In this document: piece by piece, positions 2,287 through 38,906 of the stretch | How the letters are laid out: each line of letters opens with the position of its first letter | How positions within the stretch are numbered: position 1 is the stretch's first letter | Assembly: GCA_023511615.1 (NCBI GenBank) | Contig: JAIMBL010000011.1 | Coordinates: 1 to 46,706, forward strand | Reading direction: 5' to 3' | Source: Leptolyngbyaceae cyanobacterium HOT.MB2.61 | GTDB taxonomy: Bacteria > Cyanobacteriota > Cyanobacteriia > Leptolyngbyales > Leptolyngbyaceae | Length of the DNA stretch: 46,706 nucleotides | Program-made: the position numbers and the translations under genes | Notes under the pieces: generated by a model | What the model saw: the letters and a program-made list of their open reading frames with translations, nothing else | Told to the model about the DNA's origin: nothing | Databases searched by the model: none

Positions 2287-3225
2287 TTACTCTTCTTCCC
2301 CAGCATGGTAAGAACTTCGCACCAAGGGGCCTGATCGCACATGGGAGAAGCCGATCTCGCGAGCGATCGCTCCCAGACGGTCAAATTCTTCTGGTGTCCA
2401 GTACTTCTGAACGGGTAGATGCTCTAGGGAGGGGCGCAGGTATTGCCCTAACGTGAGGCGATCACACCCCACTTTGCGCAAATCCGCCAAGGTTTCAATA
2501 ATTTCTGCTTCGGTTTCCCCGTGACCCAGCATCAACCCCGATTTGGTGGGAATCACAGGATTCAGTTCTTTGACGATTTCAAGCACCCGTAGCGATCGCT
2601 CATACTTTGCCCCCCGCCGCACTGGGCCCTGTAAGCGCCGTACCGTCTCAATATTGTGGTTATAGCAGGCAGGCTGCACAGCAATAACGGTTGCAATCCG
2701 CTGCCGCTGAAGGTCATCAGCCGAGCGATCGTCCTCTCGCCCACCCCAAAAGTCGGGAGTCAACACTTCAATCTGGGTAATGGGGTTGACTGCGCGGATC
2801 TGGGCGATCGTCCGGGCAAACCAGCCTGCGCCTCCATCTGGCAAATCATCCCGTGCCACAGAAGTCAGCACTACATAGCGCAACCCCAGCAGCTTTACTG
2901 ACTCTGCGACTTTCTCAGGTTCTGCCGGATCGAGGGGCATAGGAGCGTGCCCCTTATCCACCTGGCAAAAGGCACAGGCACGGGTGCAGGTTGGCCCCAT
3001 CAGTAGAAAAGTCGCCGTTCCCTGGGCATAACACTCCCCTCGATTGGGGCATCGTCCTTCCTCGCAAATCGTATGAATCTGGCGCTGTTTGATGATGCGC
3101 TGTACCGTGGAAAGCTCGCTAGCTTTACCAACTGGACGCCGTAGCCACTCAGGCATGGTTTCAATCTCTGCCCTGCGTCGGGAGGTGTTTGCAGAAATTG
3201 CAGCAGAATTCGTTTCAGCAGGCAT
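2287..3225 (-). CDS. lipA: Lipoyl synthase (radical SAM)
   Basis: LipA inserts two sulfur atoms into octanoylated E2/H-protein domains to make the lipoyl cofactor. Both iron-sulfur signatures are visible: the auxiliary-cluster [12 protein letters not shown] (CX4CX5C) and the radical-SAM CTRACAFC (CX3CX2C). A C-terminal RSSYHA segment carries the serine that ligates the auxiliary cluster. About 312 residues, normal for the family. The start is uncertain: an in-frame TTG at 3288, ATG at 3225 and ATG at 3156 are all possible. The conserved domain begins near the third (MPEWLRRP), so the N-terminal extension may be untranslated. The gene runs in the same direction as groEL2 but is separated from it by low-complexity sequence and the CIRCE element. 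Confidence 0.95.
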
Positions 3226-10818: not shown

Positions 10819-13380
10819 TCAGTTACCTGACATCAATTGCTGAATCTTGGGCTCCTGATGGGTACGTAAACGCTCCGGGAAACGAAGCTCAATCTGGATC
10901 GCATCGGATGGAAAAGGATGGGAAGTGGGGGATGTTTGTGGGACCGCCGATTCGACGATCGCCAGCAGTCGATTCCATTCCCTCGCTTCTTCGTCGTATT
11001 GGAGTAAACCCACAATCGGTTTCTTCCGCTGAAGGATCTCCCAGTTTGGCACCCTCCGGGCATCTACAACTAATTGTGTACTCTGGGCTCCAACCTCCGT
11101 CACAGTAGCAGGGAAAAGATGCCCTTCCCAGAAAAGCTGCACCGGAGTTTGCACCTGCTTGCGCACGCGCACTCCCTGAATCGGCTGGGGTTCTCGCAGG
11201 GAACGGTTGACACTGGAGGCAATAAACCGGAGAGATTCCAGCGGATCATCCACCTGTTCCCGGTGTTGCCCGTACCACTCGGCCACATCGGAATAGAGCA
11301 CCCGGATCAGAGCATCCATCTGTTCACGGGTGGGTTCCAGATAGTCTGCGATTAGCAACGTCTGATTCTCATTCAAAGGCACACCCCGAACAATCTGAGC
11401 TGTGACAAAGGCTCTGGCACCGTAGTCTCCCACCAGTTCCAGTTCCACCACATCGGGAATGTTAGGCCAGGCGTCCAGAATAAAGCGGGCTCCGGTTTCA
11501 CTGACATCCACGGTTCTGCCCTGCCAGGTTTGATCTTGACTGTACAGAGTGACGGGTAACTGGCGATATAAGCGGTGCGATCGCCGCAGTTGGGGTTGCT
11601 CTAGGGCCACCAGCAGGGCACCCAGCATCAGAACCAGGTTAAACACTCCCCAGGCCGCATTCACCAAAACGGCTTCCTTGTCTTCGGGGTACAAAATCAG
11701 CCAGAAAGGAACTGCCAGCAGGGACGCAATCACCAGTGCCGTAACAATGAGCAGAGGACGGGCAGAAGTCCAATCAAAACTGCGTTTGGTAACGGATAAG
11801 CCCTTATCGGTGACATTGAATTTACCCAGCTTCGGATTCAATACTGCCATCAAAGTGACAATCGCGGTAAAAAATGCCAGGGCAAATTCATAGACTTCAT
11901 TCCAGAAGGAGAACCGCACTCGCTTAGAAACAATGTAATTGGTATTCATCGCCAGGACAATGTGGGGTAGAGCATAGGCGAGGGTTTCTAATCCCAAACC
12001 CCGAATTGGATTGATGGCAAACAGTAAAAACAGGGTGGGAGCGATCGCATACATGATGCGGGGAAAGCCATAGAAAAACCCAAACATCGCCGAAAAGTAA
12101 CACAACCGTTGGGGAATCGTGAGTTTGAGCCGACGGTTAAACAGCGGATTTTCCAGACGCAGAATTTGGGCCATACCCCGTGCCCAGCGCACCTGCTGAC
12201 CCACCAGAGCAGAGAATTTCTCCGGGGCCAGTCCAGCAATCATGATTTTGTCGTAATAAACCGAGTCATAGCCCTGGGAGTGCAGTCGCAGGGAAGTATG
12301 GCAGTCTTCCGTCACGGTTTCAACGGCGATTCCCCCCACCTGCAACACGTAATCTCTGCGAATCAATGCTGCCGACCCGCAGAAGAAAGCGGCATTCCAG
12401 AAATCGTTTCCTTTCTGCACCACTTTGTAAAACAGTTCGTTGCTGACGGGAATGCGTCCCTGGGTCAGCAGGTTGCGTTCAAACGGGTCAGGATTGTAGA
12501 ACCAGTGGGGGGTTTGCACCAGGGCAACCTTGGGATTGTAGAAAAAGCCGACGGTGTTTTGCAAAAAATCGCGGGAGGGGATGTGGTCACAGTCCAGGAT
12601 CAGGATCAGATCTCCACTGGTGCGGCGCATGGCCGTGTTGATGTTACCCGCTTTGGCGTGGTCGTTGTTGTCTCGCGTCAGCAGGGTGCAGCCCAGTTCT
12701 TCACACATGCGCCGCAGTTCCTGCCGCCGTTCGGGAAATTTGCGCCCATCATCGAGGATATACACTCGCTTTTTGTCCATTGGGTAATCGACGGCCATGG
12801 CGGCGATCGCTGTTTTACGGACAATTTCCACATCCTCGTTGTAGGTGGGGATGTAGAGGTCTACTGTGAACCATTGCTCCTGGGGTCTGAGCGTCAGAGG
12901 AACGGGCTGGCGTTCCTTCAACTTCAGCGTTTGAAAGTAGGAAAGCAATAATCCGATGACGGCATAAAGCTCGGCTCCATAGAGCAGGAGGCAGAAGACC
13001 GTATTCACCCAGCCATCAAAGTTGAGGGTATAGGCAGTGCGGTAGTAGAAGTAGCGCAGGGTGGTGATAACGCTCAGCCAGACCAGAAACAGGTGGAGGT
13101 ATTCACTGGTTTGCGCATCGGCTTGGCGGTGTTCCACCTGTACTACCAGCCAGCCAATTGCAATCAACAGAACCGCCACCAATCCCTGTTGCCAGATTTC
13201 CAGCGGCGTCACAATTAACGGCACCGACAGAACCAGCATCAATCCAACCAGGCCCAGCAGTTGGCGGCGTCCGGCCCGATCCAGGGTGCGGTCAAAAAAG
13301 TCGGGAATCTGCGCCACCAGTGTATTGATTATCATCTGGCGCTTGCCTTGTTTGGGTGACTTCAAAGAAGGACTGGTCAT
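10819..13380 (-). CDS. bcsA: Cellulose synthase catalytic subunit with PilZ domain
   Basis: This is a family-2 processive glycosyltransferase of the inner membrane that polymerises UDP-glucose to beta-1,4-glucan and threads it through its own membrane channel. The 853 residues are near the family's normal length. Active-site motifs are complete: DDG (210-212), DCD (263-265), FFCGS (332-336), TED (357-359), QQVRW (395-399), and the gating-loop FNVTDKG (521-527). The cytosolic PilZ domain has RRSHR (599-603) and DVSETG (625-630), the RxxxR and DxSxxG residues that bind cyclic di-GMP, so activation by that messenger is expected. It overlaps the end of bcsB by 4 bp, indicating translational coupling as last gene of the operon. 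Confidence 0.96.
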   Translation of the reverse strand: MTSPSLKSPKQGKRQMIINTLVAQIPDFFDRTLDRAGRRQLLGLVGLMLVLSVPLIVTPLEIWQQGLVAVLLIAIGWLVVQVEHRQADAQTSEYLHLFLVWLSVITTLRYFYYRTAYTLNFDGWVNTVFCLLLYGAELYAVIGLLLSYFQTLKLKERQPVPLTLRPQEQWFTVDLYIPTYNEDVEIVRKTAIAAMAVDYPMDKKRVYILDDGRKFPERRQELRRMCEELGCTLLTRDNNDHAKAGNINTAMRRTSGDLILILDCDHIPSRDFLQNTVGFFYNPKVALVQTPHWFYNPDPFERNLLTQGRIPVSNELFYKVVQKGNDFWNAAFFCGSAALIRRDYVLQVGGIAVETVTEDCHTSLRLHSQGYDSVYYDKIMIAGLAPEKFSALVGQQVRWARGMAQILRLENPLFNRRLKLTIPQRLCYFSAMFGFFYGFPRIMYAIAPTLFLLFAINPIRGLGLETLAYALPHIVLAMNTNYIVSKRVRFSFWNEVYEFALAFFTAIVTLMAVLNPKLGKFNVTDKGLSVTKRSFDWTSARPLLIVTALVIASLLAVPFWLILYPEDKEAVLVNAAWGVFNLVLMLGALLVALEQPQLRRSHRLYRQLPVTLYSQDQTWQGRTVDVSETGARFILDAWPNIPDVVELELVGDYGARAFVTAQIVRGVPLNENQTLLIADYLEPTREQMDALIRVLYSDVAEWYGQHREQVDDPLESLRFIASSVNRSLREPQPIQGVRVRKQVQTPVQLFWEGHLFPATVTEVGAQSTQLVVDARRVPNWEILQRKKPIVGLLQYDEEAREWNRLLAIVESAVPQTSPTSHPFPSDAIQIELRFPERLRTHQEPKIQQLMSGN

Positions 13381-29147: not shown

Positions 29148-31346
29148 TTAATTTGGGCTGACTTCCCGCAGGTAATTGCCAGGGTTGAGGTCCTGAAGGT
29201 GAGAAACGGGAGTGGTTACAGTGCTGGAAGGATATACGGTTGTATCGAACACGGCACCCACCGATTTTGCTTCAGACGTAAGGGCAATTGGCTCTATGGG
29301 TTGCGGAGTTCCGTTTTCTTGCTGGCGTTGCAAACGGGCATACTCCTGAATTCTCTCGCGGGCTTCACCATAGGAAGGAGTGCCCAGAGGAACTTTTTTC
29401 AGCAGTGCAAGGGCGCTTGAATAGTCTTGCTCAATTGCCTCCTGACTCGCTTTTTCTACTAGGGAATCGGCCCAAACGTAAAACTTGTCGGTATACTCAG
29501 TCGTCTTTTCCTGAACTTCAGAATCCAGGGTTGTCCCTGTAGGGATTTTTTCCAGAGAAGTGATTGCCGCCAGGTAGTTGTTTTCGCTGGCCTGTCTATC
29601 GGCTGCCTCCAGTATTGCCTTGAGGCGAATTTCTTGTTTTTTGGTATACTCCTGAATTTTTTTCCGTGCCTTGTTGTAGACCCCGGTTTCTGGATTGATT
29701 TGTTTGAGGTAAGCAAGAGCACCTTCAAAATCTCGCACAGCAGCACGGTTGTAACTTTTTTGAAGTAGCGCGGTTGCCCGTACTTCTCGCTTCTGGGTGT
29801 ATTCGCGAATTTTCTCCTGCGCTACAGAGTACAGCGTAGAGTCTTCTGGAATTTGCTTCAGGATTTTAAGGGCATCTGTAAAGTCTTTGGCGATCACCGC
29901 ACTGTAAGCTTTCACCATTAATTGGGTCGCCTTGTCTTCAGCCAGTCGATTTGCGTGGGTGACAAGATCGGCTGTACGCTCTTTCCAGTAGGCGTTCTGG
30001 GGTAAGGCTTTGGCTTCCTGCAAAACCTCCTGCCATCGATTCTGTTTAAGGGCATCTACCATTTTCTGATAGATTGAGGTGGCTTCCTTCCAGTCTTGTT
30101 TCCAGGCATTCACCGCATCTCGTGCCGAGGAGTAAGCCTGACTCGTAATTGGAATCGACTCTGCCAGGCTAATGGCCTGTGGTAGCCTGCCATCCTGGTA
30201 CTGATTTCTGGCCTGCTCCAGGATTTGGGGTCCGCGATCCAACTGGTCTGGAGGATTCACCAAAAAGGCATAGCCAACCGTCGTCGCGGTCACAACTGTA
30301 CCAATCCCCAAACCCACCATCAAAGTCATCCCGTGCCGTTCAGCCGCAGAGAGCTTTTTGGCTGGGGAATGATCCGGGACGAGTTCTGCCTGAGGAGTAG
30401 GGTAGAAAATTGAATTGGGTTCTCCGGCGATCGAAAAAGCTGTTTCACTGACAGGTTTAATTGGAATGGCCTGCATGAGCTGGTGAATGGCTTCCAGTGC
30501 CTCTACTGCTGAGGCATAGCGCTGATTGCAATCCGGGTGCACCATTCGAGTCAGAATCGCAATCAGTTCCTGGTGGGCAGGAAACTCAGCCGCAGAAATC
30601 AGGGATGACCAGTGGTTTTTTCCAGTTTTCGAGGTTGCCAAAAATGAGCCAGGATGAGTACCTGTCAATGCTTGAATCGCGATGATTCCAATCGCATAAA
30701 CATCGCTGGCCAGGCAGGGCATCCCTTGTAGTTGCTCTGGCGGTTGATAGCTCTGCTCACTCCCATCCGTGGTCAGAATTGACTGGCCGTGGAGCGAAAG
30801 CAAAGACAGGTGAAGCTGTCTGACGCTATCAAAACTAACTAGAACAATCTTGCCATCCTGCGCCCGTCGAATCAAATGCTCTGGGGTCAAATTGCCGTGG
30901 CGGATACCCTGGTTATGGGCAAAGGCAAGCGGCTCCAGACTGTCTAACAATAGCTGCACTACTTCGCTTTCATCCCAGGGATGCTCTGGCTGAATTTCCA
31001 GACTCAAGGGGTAGCCATGTACAAATTCCTGAACCAGATAGAACCCCTCTTCGTCTTCAAAGCAGGCTAACAGTTGAGGAATCTGGTCATGGTCTGCCAG
31101 CTTTTCTAGAAGCGCGGCTTCCCGGACGAATAAATGTCGGATTGCATCCTGATATTCGGGTTCAACATGAATTGGTTTAACGTGCTGAATAATGCATTGA
31201 GGCTGACTGGGGCGGCGAGTGTCCTGTGCTAAATAAATTTGTCCCCACGCTTCAGTATTCAGTACCTGAACAACCCGGTACCGCCCATCTAACAGTGCTT
31301 CCAGTTCCAGGCAGGGTATCCCATCCTGCGATAGCAAGTTGGTCAT
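29148..31346 (-). CDS. Membrane-spanning pseudokinase with C-terminal repeats
   Basis: The 732-residue product begins with a Ser/Thr-kinase fold (about 20-290), a cytosolic domain ending in the usual SDVYAIG and QRYASA landmarks. All catalytic signatures are altered: the VAIK lysine position is Gln54 (CIIQ), HRD is HGN (150-152) and DFG is SFD (171-173). Catalysis is therefore unlikely and ligand or partner sensing more probable. A single membrane helix (about 340-363) leads to an extracytoplasmic region of some 370 residues. That region holds tandem units of about 47 residues (pattern DF..AL..LK.IP..T..Y..A..KI.EYT) resembling TPR/SEL-type helical repeats. It is the last of three minus-strand genes (HlyD-like, barrel, this), divergent from the tyrosine-rich peptide genes. 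Confidence 0.85.
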   Translation of the reverse strand: MTNLLSQDGIPCLELEALLDGRYRVVQVLNTEAWGQIYLAQDTRRPSQPQCIIQHVKPIHVEPEYQDAIRHLFVREAALLEKLADHDQIPQLLACFEDEEGFYLVQEFVHGYPLSLEIQPEHPWDESEVVQLLLDSLEPLAFAHNQGIRHGNLTPEHLIRRAQDGKIVLVSFDSVRQLHLSLLSLHGQSILTTDGSEQSYQPPEQLQGMPCLASDVYAIGIIAIQALTGTHPGSFLATSKTGKNHWSSLISAAEFPAHQELIAILTRMVHPDCNQRYASAVEALEAIHQLMQAIPIKPVSETAFSIAGEPNSIFYPTPQAELVPDHSPAKKLSAAERHGMTLMVGLGIGTVVTATTVGYAFLVNPPDQLDRGPQILEQARNQYQDGRLPQAISLAESIPITSQAYSSARDAVNAWKQDWKEATSIYQKMVDALKQNRWQEVLQEAKALPQNAYWKERTADLVTHANRLAEDKATQLMVKAYSAVIAKDFTDALKILKQIPEDSTLYSVAQEKIREYTQKREVRATALLQKSYNRAAVRDFEGALAYLKQINPETGVYNKARKKIQEYTKKQEIRLKAILEAADRQASENNYLAAITSLEKIPTGTTLDSEVQEKTTEYTDKFYVWADSLVEKASQEAIEQDYSSALALLKKVPLGTPSYGEARERIQEYARLQRQQENGTPQPIEPIALTSEAKSVGAVFDTTVYPSSTVTTPVSHLQDLNPGNYLREVSPN

Positions 31347-31471
31347 GGGTTTTCTTTCGATGTACAGCTTAAAGATTGATAGAGTTTTGCCGTATTAACT
31401 CTTTCGCCAACCTTTGCCAATCTCCGGATGCCCCACGAAAAGTTGATTGCTTTACAGGCAGGAAAAGGAGG

Positions 31472-32095
31472 TTAGAAGCGAAAACCAACTCCCACTTGCA
31501 CCTTGACTGGAGCGGTGATGCTGAAACTTTTCTGGTCAAGGGGATATTGGGCATCGCCGTAGACAACCACTTTGTCGCTAATGGCGGCTTCTGCTCCGGC
31601 GGTTACAAAAAAGGCATCTTGATCATCGGATAGCTGGGTTTTGTTTTTTGAGTTGACGAAGGAATAGCCTGCACCTGCGTAAATGTTGGCATTACGGGCG
31701 ATCGCCAGGTCGTAGGAAATGATCGGCTGCACTACATTTGCGTCCTCGTTGAGGGTCACCTTCCCTCGAATTGAAAGGGGCAAATGGTTCAGATCGATCC
31801 GTCCCTGAAAGCCTCTACTGCCGGAAGCCTCAGCCTGGGCACCATTGGTTGCACCGGGTTGAGACCCTTGCAGGGCTTGATCGATAAACCATTTGGCAGG
31901 GGAACCCGTCTGTTGCAGGTAGTCCTGGCTCAGCCCAAACGCACCGCTGGGGTCTACGGTGACTCCCAGGTAGCTACCACTCATTCCGTAGGGTTGATTG
32001 TTGGGTTGGGCATTCACGGGTTTAGGGGCCAGACTCAGGGGCGCGATCGCCAAACCCGTTACTCCAACCAAAACCTTCAAAAAACTTGTTTTCAT
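31472..32095 (-). CDS. Small outer-membrane beta-barrel protein
   Basis: The 207-residue product has a signal peptide (cleavage near VNA-QPN, about residue 29) and then a glycine-rich region of alternating polar and hydrophobic residues typical of short beta strands. It ends in VQVGVGFRF, with the terminal Phe recognised by the BAM machinery. The size suggests an eight-stranded barrel. It follows the HlyD-type gene by 72 bp on the same strand, so it may belong to the same export unit. It is too small to be a TolC-like duct, so a role in sealing, anchoring or sensing is as likely as transport. No family name can be given. Confidence 0.8.
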   Translation of the reverse strand: MKTSFLKVLVGVTGLAIAPLSLAPKPVNAQPNNQPYGMSGSYLGVTVDPSGAFGLSQDYLQQTGSPAKWFIDQALQGSQPGATNGAQAEASGSRGFQGRIDLNHLPLSIRGKVTLNEDANVVQPIISYDLAIARNANIYAGAGYSFVNSKNKTQLSDDQDAFFVTAGAEAAISDKVVVYGDAQYPLDQKSFSITAPVKVQVGVGFRF

Positions 32096-32167
32096 AACGG
32101 CTTATCTCTGGGGCAACGAGGGCTACTCATTTGACCCTACCGTTATACAAGACAAACGAAAAAATGC

Positions 32168-33343
32168 TCACAAATCTGTCCACAACCGGGCTTTTCGGAG
32201 AAGGAATTGCAACAAGGTTTCCTGCCGAGAAATAATATCTGCTCTCACTTCCATTCCCGCCTGAAGGGGGTACTGGCGGTTATCCCTGGTCAGATAGGGT
32301 TGGTCTGGTTGAATGGTGATCTCGTAATAGGATAAGCTGCTGCCACTTCCATCCCGAAGAGTTGTGACGTCGGGAGCGATCGCCTGTACCTTTCCGGGCA
32401 ATACGCCATAGTCTGGGTAGGGATAGGCTGTAACCCGCATCTGCACCGGTTGCCCAATGGCAACTTTGCTGATGTCTTGCGTTTCTACCTGCCCTTTCAC
32501 AATCAGGGGAGCGTTTTGCGGCACAATTTGAGCGATAGGATCTCCCACTCGCAAGGGCTGTCCTGGATAGTTAACATCCAGCTTCAGCAATTTGCCGTCG
32601 GTTGGTGCTTTCACAATTTGCTTATTAATTTCGGCGGTGATTTCCCGCAAGGATTCGCCATCGTATCGGATCTGGTTTTCCAGGGCAGTGCGCTGCTGCA
32701 ACAGGCGATCGCGTCGATTTGACAGGGTTGCCCCTGATTTACCTAAGGTCTCCAGTGCCGCTTCAACCAGGGTTTTTGTCTGATCTCCAGTCTGGGCTTG
32801 GTTGTCGGAGGGAGGGGGAGTTACCTTCGCTTTGGCTAAAATTTCTCGCTCTACCGATTGAAGCTGGCTATTGACGCCTGCCAATTTGTCCTGATATTGG
32901 CGAATGTATCCTTCCAGGGTGTTCTTTTTCGCCTGCAAGACCCGGAGTCGGTTGCGATCGGCTGCAATCTCAACAATGACATCCCCCTCCCGTACCACCT
33001 GATTAGGCTGTACTTTCACGGCACTCACCGTTCCATCGATCGCCGACTGCACCACATTTAACTCCCCAACCGGGCGCACACTGGCAGAGGCTTGCACCGT
33101 CACGTTATATCTCACCAGAGCCGCCAGGGCGATTGCACCGCACAATGTACCTGCCATCAAATATCCGCCCAACACTGTCCAGCGACCGATGGGTGGAAGA
33201 AACTCTTCGCTTTGAAGCGGGGGAAGATCCGAATCCGCTGTGTCCAGTATGGCAAGGGGGCCAGGTATTGCAGAGGGACCAGGCATGCCAAGTGGACCAG
33301 GGGTCGCAGATGAACCAAACATTTTAATTAGAGGATCAGACAT
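32168..33343 (-). CDS. HlyD-family membrane fusion protein
   Basis: This is a periplasmic adaptor of a type 1-like export system, anchored by one N-terminal membrane helix (about residues 60-80). The layout is standard: lipoyl-like half motif (ASVRPVGELNVVQSAIDGTVSAVKV), long coiled-coil hairpin (about 125-245) and second half motif (VKAPTDGKLLKL), then a beta-barrel domain ending near the C-terminus. The start is ATG at 33343; an in-frame TTG lies seven codons upstream. Before the membrane helix, the N-terminal cytosolic segment has a GPL/GPS-PGP repeat. It is divergent from two GG-leader peptide genes and a C39-peptidase ABC exporter, its probable partner. Confidence 0.9.
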   Translation of the reverse strand: MSDPLIKMFGSSATPGPLGMPGPSAIPGPLAILDTADSDLPPLQSEEFLPPIGRWTVLGGYLMAGTLCGAIALAALVRYNVTVQASASVRPVGELNVVQSAIDGTVSAVKVQPNQVVREGDVIVEIAADRNRLRVLQAKKNTLEGYIRQYQDKLAGVNSQLQSVEREILAKAKVTPPPSDNQAQTGDQTKTLVEAALETLGKSGATLSNRRDRLLQQRTALENQIRYDGESLREITAEINKQIVKAPTDGKLLKLDVNYPGQPLRVGDPIAQIVPQNAPLIVKGQVETQDISKVAIGQPVQMRVTAYPYPDYGVLPGKVQAIAPDVTTLRDGSGSSLSYYEITIQPDQPYLTRDNRQYPLQAGMEVRADIISRQETLLQFLLRKARLWTDL

Positions 33344-33364
33344 CGCAGATGAACTAGGTATCAA

Positions 33365-33811
33365 CTAACTCTTCAGAGGCTCTACATCGAAATCCGCAAA
33401 TTGTAAGGATCTGGGCGCAATGAAATTAGACACATCTTTGAGGGTGTTCTAGAGACGGGGCTTTGGCTCCTTGAAACCCTGATTCCCTTGACTCCCTCTC
33501 CAGGATTGCCCCCAAAAAATTGACAAACCTATATTTTTTGGGATGGAAGAGGGAAATCTCCTTCGCTCGCGAGCAAGATGCTCGCACTGCCACAAACGGT
33601 ATTTCACTCCATTTCCCCATCCACCCACCTACTCATCCACCCCCTCACCCTATAGATTTAGGTGCACCATAAAGAATCCTAAACCTTAATGAATTCATCC
33701 GGATAATAACCATCTCTGCGGGAAATTTAATCAGATTTTAGAAGACGCTAACACCATTCATTGAACGACTTCTAAAACCCTAGCGTTGAACAACTAATGA
33801 AGGAGACACCT
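33365..33811. other. Divergent promoter region of the peptide secretion locus
   Basis: About 450 bp between the HlyD-type gene and the first peptide gene. It must hold promoters for both directions. It contains an A/T-armed hairpin (33511-33542), and the last 150 bp before the peptide gene are AT-rich. I see no other gene. Confidence 0.55.
33511..33542. terminator. Symmetric hairpin with A-tract and T-tract
   Basis: CCCAAAAAAT (33511-33520) pairs exactly with ATTTTTTGGG (33533-33542) around a 12-nt loop. It could insulate the divergent transcripts or act as a bidirectional terminator. The T-tract lies inside the stem, which is not standard. Confidence 0.4.
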
Positions 33812-34048
33812 ATGTCAGTTCTCGAGAACAATGCGCTGTTTACTGAAATAACTGCTGAAGACTCTGCCCAAATTAATGGAGGTAGACGCTATTATTACAG
33901 ACCCTGCCATACCTCCTGTTACACCTCTTGCTACAACCCCTACTACTACGGTACCAGTTACGACAGCTATGGCTACGGCTATACCTATGTTGCCGGTTAC
34001 AGCTACGTAGTTCCAACTTACACCTACTATTACTACTACCGCTATTAG
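33812..34048 (+). CDS. Tyrosine-rich double-glycine leader peptide 1
   Basis: The 78-residue precursor has a 24-residue leader ending in LFTEITAEDSAQINGG, the bacteriocin-type double-glycine pattern cut by C39 peptidases. The predicted mature peptide has 54 residues, 22 of them Tyr (41%), plus Gly, Ser, Thr and Arg, and a CX3CX3C triad (CHTSC then YTSC) near its start. There is no hydrophobic spanning segment. Translation starts at ATG 33812, 5 bp after AAGGAGA; the earlier ATG at 33797 overlaps this RBS. A terminator follows at 34130, so the gene is transcribed alone. I infer a secreted peptide; antimicrobial, signalling or matrix roles are all open. Tyrosines could be oxidatively crosslinked outside the cell. 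Confidence 0.88.
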   Translation: MSVLENNALFTEITAEDSAQINGGRRYYYRPCHTSCYTSCYNPYYYGTSYDSYGYGYTYVAGYSYVVPTYTYYYYYRY

Positions 34049-34129
34049 TCAGGCAGCATCTATCTATTTTTCTGAATCGCCTACTTTAAAGATTTTGATG
34101 ACAGATATCTGAATGAAGGAAATCAGAAA

Positions 34130-34179
34130 CCAGAAGCCAGGAGTCAGAATCGATCTGGCTTCTGGCTTTTCAATTTTTT
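34130..34179 (+). terminator. Intrinsic terminator of peptide gene 1
   Basis: An 11-bp perfect stem (34130-34140 with 34155-34165) around a 14-nt loop is followed by CTTTTCAATTTTTT. It lies 82 bp after the stop of the first peptide gene. Confidence 0.85.
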
Positions 34180-34325
34180 AGCTCTTTTCAGGTTCAAGAT
34201 TTCAGAATTGTCCGGATGGGATAAATCACCTTGGGAAATGAAGTACATGACCCTAAAGCAAAGGGTTCAAGATTTACCTCGCAAGTTCGGCAGCTTGTAT
34301 CCATTCACTACTCAAGGAGTCCATC

Positions 34326-34538
34326 ATGGAAGTCACAGCTAAGGACACAGAAAACAAAGAGCTTTTCACTGATCTGAATGAAGAAGAAGCTTCAACCGTT
34401 TCTGGTGGTCACTACTACGGTTATCGTTGCAGACGGTTTTATGGCTATCGCCCCGTCTACTACTACCACAGACCCTACTACGGCTACTACAGACCCCGCT
34501 ATCGCTATGTTGCTTACTACAGTGTCTACTACTGGTAA
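34326..34538 (+). CDS. Tyrosine-rich double-glycine leader peptide 2
   Basis: The 70-residue precursor has a 28-residue leader ending in LFTDLNEEEASTVSGG, clearly related to that of peptide 1 (LFT, acidic residues, GG). The 42-residue core contains 18 Tyr (43%), 8 Arg, one Cys, one Phe and a C-terminal Trp, so it is strongly basic and aromatic, in motifs such as YGYR, YYYHRP and YYGYYRPRYRY. AAGGAG lies 7 bp before the ATG. A strong terminator follows at 34607. Core sequences 1 and 2 differ in charge and cysteine content although the leaders match, as expected for different cargoes of one exporter. The function is unknown; export and cleavage by the adjacent C39 exporter is inferred. Confidence 0.88.
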   Translation: MEVTAKDTENKELFTDLNEEEASTVSGGHYYGYRCRRFYGYRPVYYYHRPYYGYYRPRYRYVAYYSVYYW

Positions 34539-34606
34539 GAAGTGAGGTCATGGATAGCCGCTGACCGTTAACTGTCAATTGGTTCTTGAAACCTTGGTCT
34601 ATGCAG

Positions 34607-34635
34607 AACACCCGCAAATTTGCGGGTGTTTTTTT
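34607..34635 (+). terminator. Strong intrinsic terminator between peptide 2 and the exporter gene
   Basis: AACACCCGCA (34607-34616) pairs exactly with TGCGGGTGTT (34621-34630) around AATT, followed directly by five more T (seven in a row). It ends the peptide 2 transcript 70 bp before the exporter start, so the exporter needs read-through or its own promoter. Confidence 0.92.
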
Positions 34636-34705
34636 CGGAAGAGCAGGGAGTGAAGTTGAAGGTTGGTTTTATGGCAATCCATGTAGGATTGTGGGAGGTT
34701 GCTCA

Positions 34706-36934
34706 GTGAAACAGTTTTTCAATTCGCTCTCTAAATTCACCAGCAATTTGGGGTTGCAGTATCTACCAGGGAAACAAAATAAACGAATGAAACATGCAGT
34801 GTTTCTCCAGCAGAGTGAAGAAGATTGTGGAGCGGCCTGTTTAGGGTCGATCGCCAAACATTATGGACTCACGCTCACCCTGACCCGGCTGCGAGAAGCC
34901 GTTGGCACAGGGCAACAGGGAACAACCTTGCTGGGGCTAAAACGGGGAGCGGAAGCGTTAGGCTTTAATGCCCGTTCCGTGCGAGCTTCCGCTCAAATCC
35001 TGGAGCAGATGAATGAAGCGCCGCTGCCCGCCATTATTCACTGGATGGGAAATCACTGGGTTGTCCTCTATGGGCGGGAAAAGCAGAAGTATGTGATTGT
35101 TGACCCAGCCGTAGGAGAGCGTTACCTCTCAGAAGAAGAACTGCGGGAGGGTTGGGTGGATTGGACGATGCTGCTGCTGGAGCCTGACCCTGCTCGTTTT
35201 TTTGCCCAGTCCTCGGATGAGCCGACTCGGGGAATTGGCAGCTTTATGCAGCGGATATGGCTGTATCGCTCGCTGCTGGCAGAGGTGCTGTTGATTAATG
35301 GGCTGTTGGGGTTACTGTCGATCGCTACCCCCTTTTTAATTCAGATTCTCACGGATGATGTGCTGATTCGAGGCGATCTGCGGCTATTGAATGGGCTAGC
35401 AGTTGGGGTGATTGTGCTTAACCTGTTTAGCAGTGGCCTGGAGTTGGTGCAGGCCAATTTGATTGCCTACTTTGCCCAGCGACTGGAGTTAGGACTGGTC
35501 CTGGAATTTGGGCGATCAATTTTGCGTCTGCCCCTGAACTATTACGAAACCCGCCGCAGTGGAGAGGTGGTCAGCCGTTTACGTGATATTCAAGACCTTA
35601 ACCAGCTAGTTTCGCAGGTGGTAGTCAGTCTACCCAGCCAGATTTTTATTGCGATCGTTTCCCTGATTCTGATGCTGATATTTAGCTGGAAGTTGACCCT
35701 TGTGGCTCTTTGCATTGCCCTGCTGATGATGATTTCTACCGTAGTTTTTCTGCCGACTTTGCAGCAAAAGACCCGCAACCTGCTGGTGTTGGAAGCCGAG
35801 AATCAAGGCGTGCTGGTAGAGACATTCAAGGGTGCGTTGACTCTGAAAACAACGACAGCAACCAACCAGTTTTGGGAAGAATTTCAGAGTCGGTTTGGTC
35901 GATTAGCCAACTTAACCCTGCGCACCACTCAAATTGGCATTATTAACAATACCTTTTCTAGCCTGGTCTCTGCGATTGGGGCAGTTGTGCTGCTGTGGTT
36001 TGGCAGTAGTCTGGTGATTAGCCAGGAACTATCGATTGGTCAATTATTAGCTTTTGCCAGTTTTAATACGAATGTCACCACTTTGATTGGTACGGTGGTC
36101 AAGTTTACCGATGAGTTTGCCCGCGTTAAAACGGCAAGCCAGCGTTTGAATGAGGTGATTGAACACCCTACCGAAACCCAGGGAGACGCTGCCAGGCCCT
36201 TCGTCTGCATTCCACCAGAGGCAGAAATTGAGTGCGATCGCCTCACCTTCCACTACCCCGGTCGCGTTGATCTGCTGGATGATTTTTCATTGCGGCTACC
36301 CGGAGGAGCCGTAATTGCGCTGATTGGCAAATCAGGCTGTGGCAAAAGTACGCTGGCAAAACTGATTGCCGGACTGTACACCCTCCAGTCTGGCAATATT
36401 CGAATAGGTGGCTACAATCTTCAGGATCTATCCCTGGAGTGCCTGCGGCGGCAGGTGGTGCTGGTGCCCCAGGATGCCCACTTCTGGAGTCGTTCAATCC
36501 TGGCAAACTTTCGCCTGGGTACGCCGGATGTCTCCTTTGAAGAAATTGTCCACGTCTGCCAGGTAACGGGAGCCGATGAATTTATCAGCCGCTTACCTGA
36601 GAAGTATCAAACTATCCTGGGTGAGTTTGGGGCCAACCTGTCGGGTGGTCAGCGGCAGCGATTAGCGATCGCCCGTGCCCTGATCAACGATCCCCCCATT
36701 TTGATTCTGGATGAATCGACGGCTGGCTTAGATCCTCTCAGTGAGACCGAAGTTCTGGATCAGTTGCTCCACTACCGCCAGGGCAGAACCACGATTCTGA
36801 TCAGCCACCGTCCTAGAGTCATTAATCGCGCTGATTGGATTGTGCTGTTAGACCAGGGAAAACTGGTGACTCAGGGCAGTCTCAAACATCTACAATCCCA
36901 ACTTGGCGAACACTTGGACTTTTTGACTCCATAG
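34706..36934 (+). CDS. C39 peptidase-containing ABC exporter (PCAT)
   Basis: This inner-membrane exporter cleaves double-glycine leaders and pumps out the core peptide. From the chosen GTG start (GGGAGG 7 bp upstream) it has 742 residues. The C39 peptidase (about 30-160) has Cys41 in EEDCGAACL, His117 in NHWVVL and Asp133 in VIVDPA. Six membrane spans follow (about 185-460). The ATPase domain has Walker A GKSGCGKST, signature LSGGQRQR and Walker B ILILDEST. An alternative start at ATG 34787 would begin only 13 residues before the catalytic Cys. Two GG-leader precursors lie directly upstream and an HlyD-type adaptor is divergent, so substrates and partner are apparent. The layout resembles the cyanobacterial PteB/EbfG biofilm-peptide systems, by analogy only. 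Confidence 0.95.
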   Translation: MKQFFNSLSKFTSNLGLQYLPGKQNKRMKHAVFLQQSEEDCGAACLGSIAKHYGLTLTLTRLREAVGTGQQGTTLLGLKRGAEALGFNARSVRASAQILEQMNEAPLPAIIHWMGNHWVVLYGREKQKYVIVDPAVGERYLSEEELREGWVDWTMLLLEPDPARFFAQSSDEPTRGIGSFMQRIWLYRSLLAEVLLINGLLGLLSIATPFLIQILTDDVLIRGDLRLLNGLAVGVIVLNLFSSGLELVQANLIAYFAQRLELGLVLEFGRSILRLPLNYYETRRSGEVVSRLRDIQDLNQLVSQVVVSLPSQIFIAIVSLILMLIFSWKLTLVALCIALLMMISTVVFLPTLQQKTRNLLVLEAENQGVLVETFKGALTLKTTTATNQFWEEFQSRFGRLANLTLRTTQIGIINNTFSSLVSAIGAVVLLWFGSSLVISQELSIGQLLAFASFNTNVTTLIGTVVKFTDEFARVKTASQRLNEVIEHPTETQGDAARPFVCIPPEAEIECDRLTFHYPGRVDLLDDFSLRLPGGAVIALIGKSGCGKSTLAKLIAGLYTLQSGNIRIGGYNLQDLSLECLRRQVVLVPQDAHFWSRSILANFRLGTPDVSFEEIVHVCQVTGADEFISRLPEKYQTILGEFGANLSGGQRQRLAIARALINDPPILILDESTAGLDPLSETEVLDQLLHYRQGRTTILISHRPRVINRADWIVLLDQGKLVTQGSLKHLQSQLGEHLDFLTP

Positions 36935-38309: not shown

Positions 38310-38906
38310 GTGGCAGAACAATTTCCCGATAATCCCGAATTTGAACCTCTCAGCCGCACTCAGGTCCTGATTGCGATGGGAGTGACTGCAATTGTGCTGT
38401 TCCTTATTGCCAGGCTCTGGATGCAGTTTGGCTCGGTTACTCTGCTGTCTTTCCAGTGGTCCGGGTTGGCAGTGCTTCAGGGATTGGGCCTGGGAGTTGT
38501 GATTACCGCTGCCAGTTCCGTGGTCTATTACACTTGGCCGGCCTACCGCCAAAGTGCCGATTATTACCTGGAACTGGTGTTGAAACCTCTGGTGTGGCCG
38601 GATTTGATCTGGTTGGGGCTACTACCAGGGTTAAGTGAAGAATTGCTGTTTCGGGGGGTAATGCTGCCTGCCTTTGGACTGGATAACGAGGGGCTGGTGC
38701 TGTCCAGCCTGTGCTTTGGGGTGCTGCATCTCAGTAGCTTAAAACAGTGGCCCTACGTCGTCTGGGCCACAGTGATTGGAGGGACATTAGGGGCAGGCGC
38801 GATCGCCACGGGCAATTTACTGGTGCCCATCGTGGCTCACATTTCCACCAACCTGATCTCAAGTAGCCTCTGGAAGTGGGGCAAACGCAATCCTAATAAA
38901 GGATAG
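38310..38906 (+). CDS. CPBP-family intramembrane metalloprotease
   Basis: This is a polytopic membrane protein of the CAAX-protease/bacteriocin-processing (Abi/CPBP) family. The three family motifs are present: SEELLFRG (Glu-Glu), the His of GVLHLSSL, and HISTN near the C-terminus, so the glutamic-type active site looks intact. About 198 residues with five or six spans, shorter than some plant homologues but normal for bacteria. The start is GTG. Members process prenylated or membrane proteins and sometimes act in bacteriocin immunity. The PCAT peptide locus lies 1.4 kb upstream, but DUF3326 intervenes and a link is only conjecture. Confidence 0.9.
   Translation: MAEQFPDNPEFEPLSRTQVLIAMGVTAIVLFLIARLWMQFGSVTLLSFQWSGLAVLQGLGLGVVITAASSVVYYTWPAYRQSADYYLELVLKPLVWPDLIWLGLLPGLSEELLFRGVMLPAFGLDNEGLVLSSLCFGVLHLSSLKQWPYVVWATVIGGTLGAGAIATGNLLVPIVAHISTNLISSSLWKWGKRNPNKG

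Follow-up and report, generated by a model that had tools for sequence, protein, structure and literature searches.

A predicted secretion locus for small tyrosine/arginine-rich double-glycine peptides in a Leptolyngbyaceae cyanobacterium, with a promoter-like element shared with a TPR-pseudokinase gene

C39 exporters cut the double-glycine (GG) leaders of their substrates. In Synechococcus elongatus PCC 7942, the exporter PteB and the EbfG peptides are required for biofilm formation (PMC4997328, PMC9981879); the catalytic Cys of PteB is needed for EbfG secretion and biofilm formation (PMC4997328), and EbfG1–3 form amyloid (PMC9981879). Tyr-Pro stretches occur in the mature N-termini published for EbfG1 and EbfG2 (TTYNPPSYPYPSYPK, SGYSIPTYPK) (PMC4997328, PMC9981879). 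The cluster type was catalogued in 2011 under the name of group III 'bacteriocin' clusters (Wang, Fewer and Sivonen; PMC3140520). According to the main text of that survey, such clusters combine a short-type C39 exporter, HlyD and several GG precursors, as does the locus described here, and lack a second ABC protein, SurA and LanM. In the same main text, Gly, Cys, Ser and Thr are given as the abundant residues of the cores, and tyrosine is not mentioned; a Tyr/Arg-rich class, a promoter element, a terminator and a pseudokinase are not described there (PMC3140520). For the sheaths, mats and biofilms of cyanobacteria, little is known of the proteins involved beyond one unicellular model.

The window analysed here is an entire contig of 46,706 bases, taken from a genome of 5.29 Mb in 383 contigs whose closest named relatives are Leptolyngbyaceae. 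An initial annotation had listed two GG-leader peptide genes, an exporter, a divergent HlyD gene, a barrel gene and a kinase-like gene, and all six were verified in the sequence where it had placed them. On the forward strand, the genes for peptide 1 (33812..34048) and peptide 2 (34326..34538) are followed by that of the peptidase-containing ABC exporter (34787..36934). Running divergently on the reverse strand are the genes for an HlyD-type periplasmic adaptor of 398 aa (32168..33364; HlyD_3, 1.5e-22), a small outer-membrane beta-barrel of 207 aa (31472..32095; OMP_b-brl, Pfam 9.4e-08) and a TPR-pseudokinase of 732 aa (29148..31346; Pkinase, 3.5e-18). The initial annotation had not noted a conserved promoter-like element, a terminator or a regulatory connection with the pseudokinase. 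With a probability of roughly 0.6, we read the locus as encoding type I-like secretion of small structural 'sticker' peptides that are rich in Tyr and Arg and have a role in matrix or adhesion, the peptide genes being controlled together with the pseudokinase.

According to Pfam, the exporter comprises a C39 domain, a membrane domain and an ATPase, without a CAP_ED extension. The C39 triad (Cys14, His90, Asp106) is invariant in eight aligned exporters and the ATPase motifs are intact (Walker A at 514, SGGQ at 619, Walker B near 640). Because an extension to TTG 34586 is not kept or open in the nearest relatives, we assign the start to ATG 34787, where relatives begin with MKYAVFLQ, giving a predicted protein of 715 aa. 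Over its full length the exporter is 54% identical to the PteB orthologue of a S. elongatus-type genome (G045), in which the next matches reach about 30%. The initial annotation had likened the locus to PteB/EbfG in layout; the comparison extends to homology of the exporters themselves. The genome of the window holds five C39 matches, the other strong one being a longer protein on contig C132 with 33% identity to the exporter, and a tree, to be read with caution for long branches, sets the exporter and the PteB orthologue apart from this divergent protein. Judged by sequence, the exporter belongs to an already known lineage, the short-type group III with PteB included. As at this locus, PteB is a short-type exporter (714–715 aa) with several GG precursors, EbfG1–4, directly upstream. 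The short-type exporter, an HlyD gene within the cluster and adjoining GG precursors, by which group III is defined, were all found here, and neither a second peptidase-less ABC protein nor SurA or LanM was detected among the conserved neighbours within 9 kb and six scanned proteins.

The HlyD protein matched the type_I_hlyD family at 1.6e-42, which is under that family's curated cut-off, and its start is uncertain, ATG 33343 being an alternative. An HlyD gene adjoins the exporter in 38 of the 45 loci examined and is unlinked from it in two of the nearest relatives. The small barrel does lie where the initial annotation had put it, but it is not a general component, as it accompanies HlyD only here and in one relative (G006). 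A separate TolC-type gene is encoded elsewhere in the genome, on contig C46, and its product probably provides the outer-membrane step. The intact triad and ATPase motifs, together with the substrates found beside orthologous exporters, agree with the earlier proposal that the C39/HlyD locus is dedicated to GG-peptide export, and export of the cores is well supported. As homology with PteB and further C39 exporters suggests, the C39 domain would cleave the precursors behind their double glycine, and cores of 42 and 54 residues would leave the cell through the exporter, HlyD and the unlinked TolC-type channel. Directly 3' of the exporter, six relatives (L064, at 11731–12225, and L065, L066, L067, L068 and L070) carry a gene for a Pilin_GH lipoprotein (PF16734, 1.4e-28) that does not occur in the window; it is a possible pilus-type partner of the system.

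Both peptide genes have an AAGGAG Shine-Dalgarno sequence 7 nt 5' of the ATG, and both leaders show the expected hydrophobic residues at −4, −12 and −15. The peptide 1 precursor (MSVLENNALFTEITAEDSAQINGG/RRYYYRPC...) has a leader ending in INGG and a predicted mature part of 54 aa with 22 Tyr (40.7%). Its start is most likely ATG 33812, which we prefer because 33797 falls within the Shine-Dalgarno region of the second ATG. The leader of peptide 2 (MEVTAKDTENKELFTDLNEEEASTVSGG/HYYGYRC...) ends in VSGG, and its predicted mature part of 42 aa holds 18 Tyr (42.9%), has a pI of 9.7 and contains no Lys, Asp or Glu; the computed Tyr contents thus bear out the 41–43% given by the initial annotation. 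Among 596 six-frame open segments of the whole window, the best stretches of 42 residues contain 19 and 18 Tyr, with a runner-up of 7, so that the Tyr richness of the two cores is far beyond chance. Peptide 2 has an orthologue in the same genus, with 84% identity, that retains 15 of the 18 Tyr sites. The dN/dS between the two is about 0.10 (0.09 for the core), alike in core and leader, indicating that the peptide 2 core is under purifying selection. A search of the genome with peptide 1 returned peptide 2 as the sole match, and a search for plasmid-borne copies of peptide 2 found none. Profile searches of Pfam and NCBIfam assigned neither peptide to a family; a match to a poxvirus-named profile on a Gly/Ser/Tyr-rich core (19.4 bits, cut-off 25) was rejected as composition bias. 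Low complexity and the lack of a family match are what one would expect if both open reading frames were chance frames and the exporter carried other substrates. The purifying selection, the Shine-Dalgarno sites, the conserved leaders, the conserved promoter-like element and terminator and the recurrence of such genes beside the orthologous exporter (see below) make this explanation so improbable as to be negligible.

The exporter loci compared here were picked by exporter similarity and therefore describe this exporter clade rather than all cyanobacteria. Among 58 related genomes, matches at a lax cut-off were obtained in 17 for peptide 1 and in 23 for peptide 2. Good matches mostly adjoin an orthologous exporter (66–84% identity), usually with a divergent HlyD gene, and the leaders and Tyr-rich cores recur in many genera, contrary to the non-conservation beside C39 exporters that the initial annotation had named as grounds for dropping its proposal. 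The 80 exporter loci recovered from a scan of named genomes were all cyanobacterial, and in the combined set between one and seven GG peptides lie directly 5' of most exporters. Duplicate contigs were left out, and heterocystous status was judged from the tree and the names of the organisms. On this basis, cores with 15% Tyr or more were present at 39 of 41 non-heterocystous loci and at 0 of 29 heterocystous loci. The 96 peptides of the former set contain, by clade, 19–37% Tyr, 10–22% Arg and 0–1% Lys, while the 79 of the latter reach at most 14.3% Tyr, with 8.6% Lys. In the exporter tree, three well-supported clades have Tyr/Arg-rich cores: a Leptolyngbyaceae-type clade, Phormidium/Microseira and Trichodesmium/Okeania/Microcoleus/Tychonema/Kamptonema. 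Such cores are absent from the heterocystous clades. One Phormidium/Microseira locus (L080) encodes three peptides of 42–44% Tyr. Several same-family relatives have lower Tyr (5–25%) together with an NQTVNVNV tail, indicating that the clade as a whole does not depend on a Tyr content this extreme. The tail, (V)NQTVNVNVxIDD, is common to many Leptolyngbyaceae cores (L064, L066, L067, L068 and others), and Nostoc cores carry repeated QTAVNV units, in which no curli-type repeat was matched by Pfam; both are possibly beta-strand or amyloid-type elements. A contig of the Richelia sp. CSU_2_1 MAG (L109), probably mis-binned, places its exporter inside the Microcoleus clade. In G006, orphan GG peptides are encoded far from the exporter (L063:9929–10117, L062:9849–10226), one with a His/Trp/Arg-rich core (YHGHGHHHGHHGHWRRPW...), so that the exporter may also serve unlinked substrates of other compositions.

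The substrates of related exporters differ from those described here. In G045, four precursors with the published EbfG hotspot AxNIG (PMC9981879) lie upstream of the exporter, but their cores contain 0–4% Tyr, and no core similarity was found between the peptides of the window and the ebfG-type locus of this genome. No TCCGGA element was found upstream of these precursors, and the genome contains no strong pseudokinase match. In Nostocales, GG-leader substrates beside the same exporter clade match the CTB family bacteriocin profile NF038167 (L092, 88.8 bits), although their cores are unrelated to those of the window, where peptide 2 reaches 12.5 bits (cut-off 32) and peptide 1 has no match. 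This Nostoc family is one argument for regarding the cores as bacteriocins of the microcin type, antimicrobials that are exported to act on competitors; a GG leader together with a C39 exporter is moreover the classical bacteriocin layout, and the 2011 survey gave clusters of this group that very name (PMC3140520). We consider this reading unlikely, since no immunity gene was found among the conserved neighbours of the exporter, a CAAX-protease-like candidate at 38310 was rejected as not conserved beside relatives, composition rather than sequence is conserved among the several paralogues per locus, and the only exporter of this lineage to have been studied carries matrix peptides (PMC4997328, PMC9981879). 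In the literature searched (subscription papers and supplementary tables apart), no Tyr-rich GG substrates of this exporter are described, and nothing relevant was found on a TCCGGA promoter in cyanobacteria. New in the present analysis are the Tyr/Arg-rich, nearly Lys-free core class beside the exporter, the TCCGGA-N17-GRAAR element and the terminator between peptide and exporter genes.

Returning to structural peptides of the matrix as the preferred reading, we inferred a matrix or surface role of the cores from their residue make-up and from the EbfG peptides, which the homologous PteB system exports and which form amyloid. A Tyr-Arg composition with Gly/Ser spacers and without Lys favours condensation of low-complexity proteins. 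The cores, consisting mostly of Tyr and Arg, with Gly/Ser spacers, a few Cys and almost no Lys, could act as 'stickers' that bind each other and polysaccharide, and the associated cores would form part of matrix, sheath or adhesive slime. Oxidative cross-linking of Tyr, for example to dityrosine, is possible, and the genome contains two unlinked genes for animal-type haem peroxidases, a class of enzyme suited to it. These genes, and a 2OG-Fe(II) oxygenase gene elsewhere that lies 72 nt 3' of a TCCGGA-N17-GRAR match, would also fit peptides that are precursors of modified products, with tyrosines that unlinked enzymes oxidise, sulfate or cross-link. Such a reading is compatible with a matrix role, but we hold it to be rather improbable, as the peroxidase and oxygenase links are circumstantial and none of the clades has a modifying enzyme linked to the locus; the initial annotation had likewise seen none next to the peptide genes, and none occurs among the conserved neighbours. 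As a more far-reaching model, which we put forward tentatively and think is more doubtful than sound, non-heterocystous filamentous cyanobacteria would possess a TCCGGA-controlled regulon whose secreted Tyr/Arg stickers build an adhesive condensate or cross-linked sheath, with the pseudokinase gating or monitoring export. In Trichodesmium, Okeania, Microcoleus, Phormidium and Leptolyngbyaceae, which form mats, blooms and crusts, the widespread exporter lineage is tied to small secreted proteins of distinctive composition, and a likely control element and a co-regulated pseudokinase make these peptides readily recognised and tested. Tyr/Arg peptides of 40–55 residues with almost no Lys could also serve as simple bio-adhesive models.

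Among non-heterocystous loci, TCCGGA was the most frequent hexamer 100–200 nt 5' of the leader codons. It occurred in 36 of 72 non-redundant upstream regions, at 28 of 37 loci, compared to none of 66 heterocystous regions. Rearrangements of the same letters averaged 1.06; the one frequent among them, CCGGAT (23), overlaps TCCGGA. In a gap-free alignment the copies share TCCGGA-N17-GRAAR and, further downstream, weaker T and ATTA positions; the fixed spacing appears promoter-like. In the window, one such element lies 5' of peptide 1 (33698..33730, forward strand; TCCGGAT-N16-GGAAA) and a second, of TCCGGA-N17-GGAA type, 5' of peptide 2 (34211..34237, forward strand). SigJ-dependent hormogonium promoters carry the J-Box GGGaAtacT (PMC6495340). 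The downstream half of our element is similarly G/A-rich, like an extended −10, and reads GGGAAATTT at peptide 1; however, most orthologous copies have AGAA without the invariant GGG, and a J-Box does not include the TCCGGA that is strongly conserved upstream here, so that the two are similar but probably not the same. Genome-wide in eight relatives, the strict pattern gave 0–3 matches each, 12 in total compared to 3 in a reversed control; three of the 12 lie at the peptide locus and two more before unlinked pseudokinase genes. In the genome of the window the pattern has 23 matches, which lie mostly within genes and so do not delimit a wider regulon. Two TCCGGA-N17-GRAR copies (G000:C15:1773–1805, L175; G000:C156:33041–33073, L184) lie 60–72 nt before genes for a hexapeptide-repeat acyltransferase and the 2OG-Fe(II) oxygenase, which are possible further regulon members. 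In G001, a peptide 1 orthologue stands alone (L059:9781–10050), about 185 kb from peptide 2 and the exporter, and has retained the element.

The element also precedes the pseudokinase gene. In the window it lies 82 nt 5' of the ATG (31396..31428, reverse strand; TCCGGAGAT...GCGAAAGAGTTA), and it was found 61–162 nt upstream in eight of the nine genomes read (the window, L064, L066, L068, G001, G006, G018 and G027; not found in L070). At relatives' loci the pseudokinase gene is often situated beyond the divergent HlyD gene. In G001, G006, G018 and G027, by comparison, it is far from the peptide locus, yet still has the element (in G027 at 2945, with the gene at 3105), indicating that shared control rather than neighbourhood explains its presence. 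We regard these unlinked copies as the strongest sign that the pseudokinase belongs to the system. As suggested by the conserved sequence, the TCCGGA-N17-GRAAR promoters may switch on the peptide genes and the membrane TPR-pseudokinase together. In the kinase-like domain, HRD is replaced by HGN, the VAIK lysine is lost and most of DFG is lost; HGN recurs in all five orthologues compared (the window, L064, L066, L068, L070), with the VAIK lysine lost in all and DFG mostly lost. An active Hanks-type kinase was thus rejected for want of the VAIK Lys, the HRD Asp and the DFG Asp. A class III/IV lanthipeptide (LanKC/LanL) kinase was rejected as well, as the match reached 97 bits against a cut-off of 650, covered only model positions 184–459 of 851, and the C-terminus is a helical solenoid. 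A single hydrophobic segment near 343–365 precedes this alpha-solenoid of long-helix/short-helix repeats, which would accordingly be located outside the membrane. AlphaFold (3 sequences) modelled the solenoid (366–678) at a pLDDT of about 75–92, the kinase part being unreliable. A membrane protein with a repeat solenoid that could be periplasmic and that shares the element with the peptide genes might sense the cores as extracellular signals, be they cell-cell or developmental. Signal peptides, however, usually keep their core sequence, whereas here composition alone is kept, and three to four different cores may occur in one genome; hence we see little chance of a signalling role.

In every close relative, a hairpin followed by T separates the peptide genes from the exporter gene, with stems that differ in sequence but conserve the pairing. 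In the window, this intrinsic-terminator hairpin is AGAACACCCGCA-AATT-TGCGGGTGTTTTTTT (34605..34635, forward strand). Hairpins with a score of at least 18 were found at 9 of 9 close loci and 26 of 29 oscillatorian loci, compared to 0 of 22 heterocystous loci and 0.05–0.1 in shuffles. The conserved terminator likely holds peptide transcription high and exporter transcription low, which would keep substrate output well above exporter output. A further terminator-like hairpin between the genes for peptides 1 and 2 (34132..34170, forward strand) is a single match in its region and weak on its own, as shuffles give more such matches. Heterocystous loci have a different, weaker hairpin in about half of the cases. 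In several Nostoc loci (L089, L098, L107, L145 and others), a nearly invariant hairpin, GCAGGG-N6-CCCTGC followed by TATTTTTTT, is located about 65 nt before the exporter gene.
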